Positions 3,999-22,668 of a stretch of DNA of 64,000 nucleotides are shown in pieces. Both the position numbers and the translations under genes were made by a program. This stretch comes from Lutimonas zeaxanthinifaciens (GTDB lineage Bacteria > Bacteroidota > Bacteroidia > Flavobacteriales > Flavobacteriaceae). Position 1 is the first letter of the stretch; each line of letters begins with the position of its first letter. The DNA is taken from contig NZ_CP129964.1 in assembly GCF_030503675.1 (NCBI RefSeq), positions 62,001 to 126,000 on the forward strand, given 5' to 3'. The notes under the pieces are model-generated. The model was not told the DNA's origin. It did not search any database and saw only the letters and a list, made by a program, of their open reading frames with translations.

Positions 3999-4574
3999 AT
4001 GGAAAATAAAAAAGGAAAACTGATTGTTTTTTCAGCTCCGTCGGGATCGGGTAAAACAACAATTGTTCATCATTTGTTAGAAGTGAAAAAAGAAGTTCTG
4101 GACTTTTCCGTTTCGGCAACATCAAGGGAAAGGAGAGGAACTGAGATCGATGGAAAAGACTATCATTTCTTAAGTCCTGAAGAATTTAAAAAACATATTG
4201 AGGCTGATGATTTTGTGGAATGGGAAGAGGTTTACAAAGACAATTTCTACGGAACACTGAAGTCTGAAGTAGAACGTATCTGGTCAGAGGGCAAGCATGC
4301 TATTTTTGACATTGATGTGATCGGGGGCTTAAAGATCAAAGAAAAGTTTCCGGAAAAAACGCTTGCGGTCTTTGTAAAGGCACCTTCACTGGAGATCATG
4401 GAAAAGAGGCTTAGGGGAAGAGATACAGAGTCTGAGGAGAAAATACAGGTCCGACTGGCTAAGGCGGAAAGGGAATTGTCATTTGCCGGAAAGTTTGATT
4501 ATATCCTTGTAAATGATAATCTTTCAAAGGCGCAGAAAGAAGCCGAAGATGTAATTGATCAATTCATTTCATAA
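3999..4574 (+). CDS. gmk: Guanylate kinase
   Basis: Phosphorylates GMP to GDP with ATP. The 191-residue protein has the P-loop SAPSGSGKTT near residue 11, the GMP-binding segment SATSRERRGTEIDGKDYHF (residues 38-56), and the lid region RLRGRDTESEEKI. Length is usual for the family. It follows yicC by 2 nt and precedes nadD by 17 nt in the same direction. Confidence 0.96.
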   Translation: MENKKGKLIVFSAPSGSGKTTIVHHLLEVKKEVLDFSVSATSRERRGTEIDGKDYHFLSPEEFKKHIEADDFVEWEEVYKDNFYGTLKSEVERIWSEGKHAIFDIDVIGGLKIKEKFPEKTLAVFVKAPSLEIMEKRLRGRDTESEEKIQVRLAKAERELSFAGKFDYILVNDNLSKAQKEAEDVIDQFIS

Positions 4575-21637: not shown

Positions 21638-22473
21638 ACGGCATTATTTTGATGGTATTCCCCAAGAATTTTTAAATGGGTAACTTTTTTTGAAATCAGA
21701 TGAAGTGCATTTTTATAAAGTACGAAGTCATCTATTACGAGATCGATAAAAAAAGCATAGTTCCAAGGTTTTTCTATAATTGGCAAAGATTGGATTTTGG
21801 TAAGATTCAGATCGTGTTTACCGAAAATATCCAAAATTTCAGCCAGACTTCCAGCATCGTGCTTTGTAACGAACTTCAACGAAGCTTTATCTTTTATTTC
21901 ACCAAGTTTACTTGGGTGATACGGACTGTCATTATTCTTTTTTAAGATGAAAAATCGCGTCGAATTATTTTTAATGGTCTGAATATCGTCAGCAACAACT
22001 TTGAGGCCATACATATCAGCGGCCATCTTACTGGCTATAGCCGCAACCCCTTTAATGTTTTCTTTTTGTATTCTTCTTGCAACCTCAGCCGTATCTTTTT
22101 CCTCGATCAATTTAATTTCCGGACGTTCACGAAAAAATTTTCGGCATTGTAACAGGGCCATAGGATGCGACCAGACTTCTTTAACATCTTTCAATTCCTG
22201 ACCATCCAATGCCATTAAATGATGATGAATATTCGTAAAATATTCTCCCTCAATACTTAAATTGTACTCATCAATCAAGGCATAATTTGGAAGAATAGCA
22301 CCTGCGATTGAATTTTCTATAGCCATTACTGCGCTATCGACTTCATCGTTTTCAAGTAACAAAGGAATTTCAGTAAAAGACATGCACTCCACCAGCTCTA
22401 TATCACTGCCAAAATACTTATTGGCCACAATATGATGAAATGAACCCTTTATTCCTTGAATTGCTATTCTCAT
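21634..22473 (-). CDS. pheA: Prephenate dehydratase with ACT domain
   Basis: Converts prephenate to phenylpyruvate. The 279-residue protein has the dehydratase domain in residues 1-185 with the catalytic threonine in NNSTRFFIL, and a C-terminal ACT domain (about residues 198-275, DAGSLAEILDIFGKHDLNLTKI) that in this family binds Phe for feedback inhibition. It is the first gene of the operon and lies just after a leader peptide ORF and terminator that form a predicted attenuator (22492-22668). Confidence 0.94.
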   Translation of the reverse strand: MRIAIQGIKGSFHHIVANKYFGSDIELVECMSFTEIPLLLENDEVDSAVMAIENSIAGAILPNYALIDEYNLSIEGEYFTNIHHHLMALDGQELKDVKEVWSHPMALLQCRKFFRERPEIKLIEEKDTAEVARRIQKENIKGVAAIASKMAADMYGLKVVADDIQTIKNNSTRFFILKKNNDSPYHPSKLGEIKDKASLKFVTKHDAGSLAEILDIFGKHDLNLTKIQSLPIIEKPWNYAFFIDLVIDDFVLYKNALHLISKKVTHLKILGEYHQNNAV

Positions 22474-22491: not shown

Positions 22492-22518
22492 AAAAAAAAA
22501 GCCTCGAAAACGAGACTT
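22492..22518 (-). terminator. Attenuator terminator before pheA
   Basis: On the minus strand the stem AAGTCTCG (22518-22511) pairs with CGAGGCTT (22506-22499) over 8 bp including one G-U, with a TTTT loop and nine T (22500-22492). It lies 19 bp before the pheA ATG, downstream of the promoter, so it can only act as a premature terminator. The 7-base segment GAGACTT at 22556-22550 is complementary to the 5' arm and can form a competing antiterminator. Confidence 0.8.
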
Positions 22519-22561
22519 AATATGTTATTATAAATGATCTATACATCAAAAGTCTCAGCCT

Positions 22562-22618
22562 TTATTTCGTAAAAAAATAAAAGTAAAACCAGTTAAATAT
22601 TTGTACAGATATTGTCAT
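22562..22618 (-). CDS. Phe/Tyr-rich leader peptide of the aromatic operon
   Basis: An 18-codon ORF, MTISVQIFNWFYFYFFTK, with an ATG 15 nt after the predicted transcription start. Eight of 18 residues are aromatic (5 Phe, 2 Tyr, 1 Trp), with seven in a row at positions 10-16. The stop codon lies 5 nt before the antiterminator arm, so a ribosome resting at the stop would cover that arm, while a ribosome stalled at the Phe/Tyr codons would leave it free. It is read here directly from the minus strand; it is too short for ordinary gene finding. This is the pattern of pheL-type leaders. Confidence 0.8.
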   Translation of the reverse strand: MTISVQIFNWFYFYFFTK

Positions 22619-22637
22619 TAAAATCAAAATTAGGCAG

Positions 22638-22668
22638 CAAATCTATGAATTTATTTGTCAATTACAAG
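22638..22668 (-). promoter_or_regulatory. Promoter of the Phe/Tyr operon
   Basis: On the minus strand CTTG (22668-22665), 19 bp spacing, then TAGATTTG (22645-22638), a full TAnnTTTG match. The transcript would begin about 22633 and run through the leader ORF and the attenuator. Confidence 0.7.

Follow-up and report, generated by a model that had tools for sequence, protein, structure and literature searches.

In the window (the whole 64-kb stretch of DNA that was analyzed), four genes on the minus strand form an operon, pheA, an aminotransferase gene, tyrA, and a DAHP synthase-chorismate mutase gene, with a 4-bp overlap at each junction. These names, given in a preliminary description made from the letters alone, were backed by matches to Pfam and NCBIfam models, and by these family matches the operon downstream of the leader consists of Phe and Tyr synthesis genes. 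The pheA ATG is at 22473, and a T tract ends 18 nt before the gene. The gene upstream of the leader encodes an ABC ATPase and is divergent; the leader terminator is therefore not the end of that gene. The promoter, ORF, aromatic run, GAGACTT, terminator, and nine T's of the preliminary description were all located on the minus strand where it had placed them, exact to the base. The features are as follows.

22668 to 22638, minus strand: promoter-like pair of Bacteroidota type, CTTG plus 19 nt plus TAGATTTG (sequence)
22668 to 22665, minus strand: CTTG box, followed by the 19-nt spacer (sequence)
22645 to 22638, minus strand: TAGATTTG box (sequence)
22618 to 22562, minus strand: leader peptide ORF MTISVQIFNWFYFYFFTK, ATG at 22618 to TAA ending at 22562 (sequence; aromatic-run ORF at 75 of 80 pheA loci)
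22591 to 22571, minus strand: predicted sensing codons W10 to F16 (WFYFYFF), most of arm 1 (sequence; comparison with relatives)
22590 to 22551, minus strand: 1:2 hairpin, 22590 to 22574 with 22568 to 22551 (minimum-energy fold)
22557 to 22550, minus strand: arm 2, the predicted antiterminator, TGAGACTT (complementarity to arm 3; covariation)
22556 to 22550, minus strand: GAGACTT within arm 2 (sequence)
22518 to 22511, minus strand: arm 3, AAGTCTCG, common to antiterminator (2:3) and terminator (3:4) (pairing; covariation)
22506 to 22499, minus strand: terminator arm 4, CGAGGCTT (sequence; helix 3:4 99.3% paired over 75 distinct leaders)
22500 to 22492, minus strand: T tract of the intrinsic terminator (sequence)
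22473 to 21634, minus strand: pheA, prephenate dehydratase, 279 aa (Pfam PDT, 9.1e-58)
21637 to 20489, minus strand: class I/II aminotransferase (Pfam Aminotran_1_2, 3.8e-61)
20492 to 19635, minus strand: tyrA, prephenate dehydrogenase (NCBIfam NF006307, 352 bits, cut-off 295)
19638 to 18553, minus strand: DAHP synthase-chorismate mutase fusion (Pfam DAHP_synth_1 and CM_2)

A short aromatic ORF and an intrinsic terminator precede pheA

The peptide MTISVQIFNWFYFYFFTK contains seven consecutive aromatic residues at codons 10 to 16. When ORFs of 8 to 45 codons on both strands of the 64 kb were scanned for aromatic residues (F, Y, and W), a density of at least 7 in 8 was reached at one stop position, that of the pheA leader ORF, and 6 in 8 was reached by three. 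In the window leader the first base of arm 2 lies 16 nt past the first base of the last aromatic codon, and the terminator stem comprises 8 bp, including one G.U, closed by a TTTT loop. Folding the leader RNA computationally, a check suggested in the preliminary description, gave a z of -3.44 against 200 dinucleotide shuffles, 199 of which folded less well.

The leader is conserved across Flavobacteriaceae

With the window PheA as query, the best 80 of 124 relatives were taken as loci; the nearest named relative by PheA was Lutimonas saemankumensis (96% identity), so that the window probably comes from a Lutimonas-like bacterium in Flavobacteriaceae. At 75 of these 80 loci, pheA is preceded by a short ORF containing a Phe/Tyr run (5 or more aromatic residues in 8), bearing out the expectation that the run would be conserved in relatives. 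Both Phe and Tyr occurred in the run of all 76 leaders (the window plus these 75), from which a shortage of either amino acid would be expected to open the operon. The initial search of the 80 loci returned no aromatic-run ORF upstream of pheA at L004, L039, L060, L062, and L075. The L004 contig begins 44 nt upstream of pheA; L060 is from Echinicola, L075 from Cecembia, and L062 from a bin labeled gammaproteobacterium. L039 was no true miss, its leader having been found as a model match (L096) 1,045 nt upstream of pheA. Between that leader and pheA lies a 197-codon ORF, 192 to 783 nt past the start of the leader match, whose product we take to resemble a REP-associated transposase; the attenuator at L096 may now govern this inserted transposase-like ORF too.

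A covariance model of the leader, R1, was built on 135 positions with the 8 terminator pairs. In the family it found 349 of 397 genomes (296 of the 330 good ones) and 214 of 237 genera; among the matches listed, ten genomes had two and the rest one. In 39 of 40 fetched matches (L089 to L128), which were the best scoring rather than a random sample and include the window itself as L122, pheA lay on the same strand less than 400 nt downstream. Seven of eight weaker matches in the family also precede pheA. The eighth, L148, does not; this match, which lies at no recognizable leader, was rejected. Among the 20 listed of the 48 R1-negative family genomes, 16 gave no PheA match, two carry a leader that R1 overlooked (L174 and L175), and two have pheA with no leader found (L173 and L176). 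This distribution suggests that Phe and Tyr synthesis is regulated in nearly the whole family by an element recognizable from sequence.

The leader model also finds loci outside the family

R1 matched 50 of 296 genomes of the order and 39 of 296 genomes of the phylum, two sets that overlap and that both include Flavobacteriaceae. All 33 listed matching places outside the family, in 29 genomes, were fetched as 32 loci. The next gene was pheA at 23 of the 32, among them a distant pheA at L137 (37% identity) and the pheA leader L153 in a genome of another class. Six of the 32 (L139 to L143 and L165) were ordinary terminators at the ends of long ORFs and were discarded.

Several of the remaining loci differ in arrangement. 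L137, in a genome of the order, has two Phe-rich leader units in tandem, with matches 137 nt apart, ahead of a single distant pheA-like gene. An aromatic leader precedes an aminotransferase-tyrA pair at L135 and a DAHP synthase-chorismate mutase gene at L161, with no pheA in the fetched stretch of either. At L164, in a genome of the same class, a Thr/Ile-rich short ORF recognized by eye (MIFNTSIITTIIITTGINQRG) and a terminator stand before a thrA-like gene; this element is a thrL-like leader.

One arm covaries with two partners

A terminator and a complementary arm 2 were found in all 76 leaders (the window plus 75). The arm 2 search always gives its best candidate, and mononucleotide shuffles of the same region served as the control. 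In 41 of the 76 leaders no more than 2 of 200 shuffles equaled the arm 2 pairing, and in 64 no more than 10 did; in 12, arm 2 alone was indistinguishable from chance (more than 10 of 200 shuffles). In a MAFFT alignment built with no structure information (A1), helix 2:3 was paired in 85.8% of cells, compared to 80.6% after shuffling (0 of 500 shuffles as high). Slid registers gave 20 to 47.4%, a comparison in which taking the tested pairs from the window already favors the true register. Against shuffles that ignore relatedness, covariation was 0.303 in helix 2:3 (shuffled, 0.202; sd 0.009) and 0.341 in helix 3:4 (shuffled, 0.236); double changes occurred at 6 and 5 of the 8 pairs, respectively. 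Helix 3:4 was paired in 99.3% of cells compared to 94.6% after shuffling (75 distinct leaders). Of the five measures, one was less favorable: further pair types were not clearly more numerous than in the shuffles for either helix (90 and 358 of 500 as high for 2:3 and 3:4, respectively).

Arm 3 occurs by lineage as GTCTC, GTCCC, GTTCC, GTCCT, or GCCTC, and the PheA tree (quick method) requires 8 or more changes in its core. Such covariation of one arm with two partners is characteristic of a switch. The alternative pairing first read from a single genome is thus conserved, in that the antiterminator and terminator helices both covary in relatives. We see next to no chance that the locus holds a plain terminator or processing site beside a functional aromatic microprotein, with no attenuation at all: such an arrangement would account for the conserved ORF, but an arm covarying with two partners would be unexpected, as would a spacing set by codons (see below), and the upstream gene is divergent.

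The aromatic codons set the register of arm 2

In the 76 leaders, the last aromatic codon and arm 2 were 10 to 18 nt apart (first base to first base; median, 13). In a second set of 69 (64 new, 5 repeats of the first 76; 23 outside the family), it was 8 to 16 nt plus one of 29 nt, again with a median of 13. The outlier, L138, has a weak arm, and its terminator is probably misplaced; it was kept in the list. Two loci with leader and pheA present, L154 and L162, were excluded from the 69, their terminators having been missed by the strict finder. The distance from the stop codon to arm 2 ranged from -28 to +8 nt in the 76 leaders and from -33 to +8 nt in the 69. Since the spacing from codons to arm 2 is nearly constant and the stop drifts, the register is fixed by the codons rather than by the stop.

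In 65 of the 76 leaders, arm 2 starts upstream of the stop codon, the window being among the other 11; on the PheA tree the order of the two has switched no fewer than 7 times. The preliminary description had a ribosome at the stop covering the antiterminator. That arrangement stands for the window, but in the 65 leaders the ribosome would translate into arm 2, so that no wait at an earlier stop is needed.

We calculated 2:3 pairing with the ribosome at successive positions, placing the edge of its footprint 13 nt ahead of the A site, a value that was not fitted, and leaving out the RNA behind the ribosome. The 13-nt edge is the Escherichia coli value and may differ in Bacteroidota. Predicted 2:3 pairing was 0.97 within the run and 0.90 at the last aromatic codon; it was 0.55 one codon past the run, 0.11 two codons past it, and 0.00 at the stop. 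By this calculation, with the E. coli footprint, the placement of the codon run fits: a stalled ribosome would free arm 2, and a ribosome past the run would cover it.

A 1:2 hairpin is predicted in the window

A clear 1:2 pause hairpin had not been found in the preliminary description; the minimum-energy fold contains one, at 22590 to 22551. In it, GGTTTTACTTTTATTTT pairs with GAAATAAAGG, followed by an unpaired C and then TGAGACT, and most of the GAGACTT arm is included. With the part downstream of the run shuffled as control, the hairpin had a z of -2.91 in the window; z was negative in 72 of the 76 leaders and below -1 in 62. RNAalifold, applied to the codon-run part of A1, returned no consensus 1:2 structure, in our opinion because A1 does not register those arms; the hairpin was therefore tested singly, leader by leader. 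For ribosome-free window RNA ending at arm 3, the equilibrium values were 0.87 for 1:2 and 0.00 for 2:3. Over the 76 leaders, with RNA likewise ribosome free and ending at arm 3, the mean was 0.70 for 2:3 versus 0.22 for arm 2 with the ORF. The window has the 1:2 hairpin, and many of the leaders do too, but as an equilibrium lock it is not family-wide. Because mean 2:3 exceeds 1:2 in the relatives, their untranslated state is not clearly "off," whereas in the window it is predicted to be off.

The leader ORF and its promoter-like boxes

Among close pairs of leaders (65 pairs from 54 loci, not independent of one another), changes at codon positions 1, 2, and 3 numbered 118, 156, and 256 over the ORF (256 of 530 at the third) and 5, 30, and 48 within the run. 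The start context of the 72 ATG leaders was A rich (60% have A at -3), G was rare upstream, and their position frequencies contained no Shine-Dalgarno-like stretch. The same is reported for Flavobacterium johnsoniae genes (PMC6847099), and initiation in Bacteroidota is described as working without Shine-Dalgarno pairing (PMC6847099, PMC9976891). Boxes resembling a promoter at 8 or more of 9 positions, and ending 11 to 30 nt before the ORF, were found in 57 of 73 leaders versus 8 of 112 control stretches further upstream, a placement in keeping with a transcription start ahead of the ORF and not downstream of 22500.

These data bear on the alternative that the ORF is incidental and that Phe or Tyr is sensed by an aptamer or a tRNA-binding element (a riboswitch or T-box). 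A conserved structured 5' leader with a terminator is indeed present, and the published pheA element is called structured (PMC9723704). We nevertheless consider such an element extremely unlikely: third codon positions change most (256 of 530), arm spacing tracks the codons, only about 20 nt separate the promoter box from the ORF, and neither the window leader nor 18 relatives' leader loci matched an Rfam family at cut-off. At gathering scores, the Rfam scan of the window yielded only a tRNA; a lax scan of the leader yielded only chance hits, with no T-box or amino acid riboswitch.

Putative codon-sensing leaders recur in the same genome

Leaders of the kind proposed for pheA, in which a translating ribosome would sense codons, were also found at other amino acid genes of this genome. 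At hisG, a His-run leader, MKRIALHHHHIHTCTQAR, is accompanied by arm 2 and a terminator (L082, C1:1594173-1597640). Of 41 family genomes, 33 yielded hisG, and a His-run leader with terminator was present at 29 of 30 loci examined, with 9 to 20 nt from the last His to arm 2 in the 29. At ilvD, an Ile/Val leader, MKQFNLHIVAVIIIRSEVI, has a terminator and a complementary arm (L083). ilvD was found in 32 of 41 family genomes; 21 of 30 loci passed an Ile/Leu/Val test, 19 of them with a terminator, at spacings of 4 to 22 nt (L208 is doubtful). Thresholds for his and ilv were set by us, and both counts stand without a shuffled control. At trpE, a Trp leader, MRNNTIHTWWWSLQNNNL, has a terminator-like hairpin by eye (L085) and scores 41.4 bits with Rfam Bacteroid-trp, just below the cut-off of 49. 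A thrA leader in this genome was rejected: a Thr-rich ORF is present (MQKIVNLISSFRCNTTTATFTNTL), but no clear terminator was seen. At another locus (L170, C1:3219500-3226000), a SAM riboswitch lies at 4401 to 4515 on the minus strand before a homoserine dehydrogenase-containing gene, with a SAM-II riboswitch 1.8 kb away on the opposite strand.

The companion leaders also help in weighing an arrest peptide of the TnaC kind, in which the nascent aromatic peptide and a ligand such as free Phe, not a lack of charged tRNA, would stall the ribosome in the exit tunnel. A stall at the end of the run would produce identical geometry, and the presence of both Phe and Tyr in all 76 runs agrees with it. 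Arrest peptides are known to carry fixed residues at set positions, whereas the leader peptides here vary in length, start, and Phe/Tyr order. His and Ile/Leu/Val leaders with the same arms at hisG and ilvD, in this genome and in the family, and the Trp-run leader at trpE in this genome are what codon sensing predicts, and we regard an arrest peptide as very unlikely.

Among the Phe/Tyr, His, and Ile/Leu/Val leaders, 193 were measured, and in 177 of them arm 2 lay 9 to 16 nt from the last codon of the run. There is a good chance that a whole set of codon-sensing transcription attenuators (for Phe/Tyr, His, Ile/Leu/Val, and Trp and, in some members, Thr) serves Bacteroidota under one rule, by which arm 2 begins about one ribosome half-footprint past the last sensed codon, often in frame, and the peptide end and stop are free to drift. 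If this is true, the ribosome would commonly be close behind RNA polymerase at such leaders in Bacteroidota. The geometry rule also offers a means of detecting such leaders by computer.

Proposed mechanism

Taken together, the sequences indicate that the element is very probably a ribosome-mediated Phe/Tyr transcription attenuator of the pheA-aminotransferase-tyrA-DAHP synthase/chorismate mutase operon. The logic of pheL/trpL attenuation, previously proposed for the window, is strongly supported by the comparison of aromatic run, covarying helices, and geometry. From the anatomy, conservation, covariation, and constant geometry of the attenuator, we infer the following response to amino acids. 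Transcription would start just past TAGATTTG, and a ribosome, following RNA polymerase closely, would begin to translate the leader ORF. If charged Phe-tRNA or Tyr-tRNA were scarce, the ribosome would stall in the WFYFYFF run with its leading edge just short of GAGACTT, which could then pair with AAGTCTC (2:3); the terminator would be blocked and the operon transcribed by read-through. If both charged tRNAs were plentiful, the ribosome would come to lie over GAGACTT, 3:4 would form, and transcription would stop at the T tract. With no translation, the codon run of the window RNA would hold arm 2 (1:2), and termination would be favored as well. The pheA leader may be a clean place to test transcription-translation coupling in Bacteroidota.

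Comparison with known systems

A 2021 study of Flavobacterium psychrophilum reported 64 structured 5' regions, among them a conserved structured element at pheA that is present in other genera of Flavobacteriaceae and has no Rfam hit; it also mentions clues of leader-peptide attenuation at amino acid operons (PMC9723704). That pheA element is likely identical with the present leader. It precedes the same gene and is compared here by its description, which in the accessible text gives no arms, geometry, or named leader-peptide operons (PMC9723704). The preliminary remark that a pheL-type leader was not known to have been described in flavobacteria is only partly right. It fits the anatomy, for which no description of a Bacteroidota pheA leader was found in the literature searched, mostly outside subscription journals and supplements; a structured pheA element and leader-peptide clues had already been reported (PMC9723704).

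Other sources touch on related leaders. Short ORFs reminiscent of leader peptides are noted in long 5' untranslated regions of Bacteroides thetaiotaomicron (PMC7366714). A paper on the his genes of the superphylum places attenuation upstream of hisG in one general passage, and the word "leader" is absent from its main text (PMC8305728). Bacteroid-trp, the Bacteroidete tryptophan peptide leader RNA, is entered in a motif table (PMC2864571). This Rfam family (RF01692) is a leader-peptide element of the same phylum that senses Trp, not Phe or Tyr, and it had no match at the pheA leader or at the 18 relatives' loci. Relative to the literature seen, the anatomy, geometry, covariation, and spread are new here; the idea of attenuation was partly anticipated. 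The R1 model could seed an Rfam family.

The closest counterparts are pheL-pheA and trpL of E. coli, which share with the present element a leader peptide of sensed codons, competing arms, an intrinsic terminator, and a biosynthetic gene. The leader described here differs in its mixed run of Phe and Tyr codons and in lacking a match to the Rfam Phe_leader family (RF01859; 14.7 bits, E = 9, for the window leader against a gathering cut-off of 55). It differs further in the start of arm 2, which precedes the stop in 65 of 76 leaders, in the lack of a Shine-Dalgarno-like stretch, and in an operon that includes tyrA and DAHP synthase.
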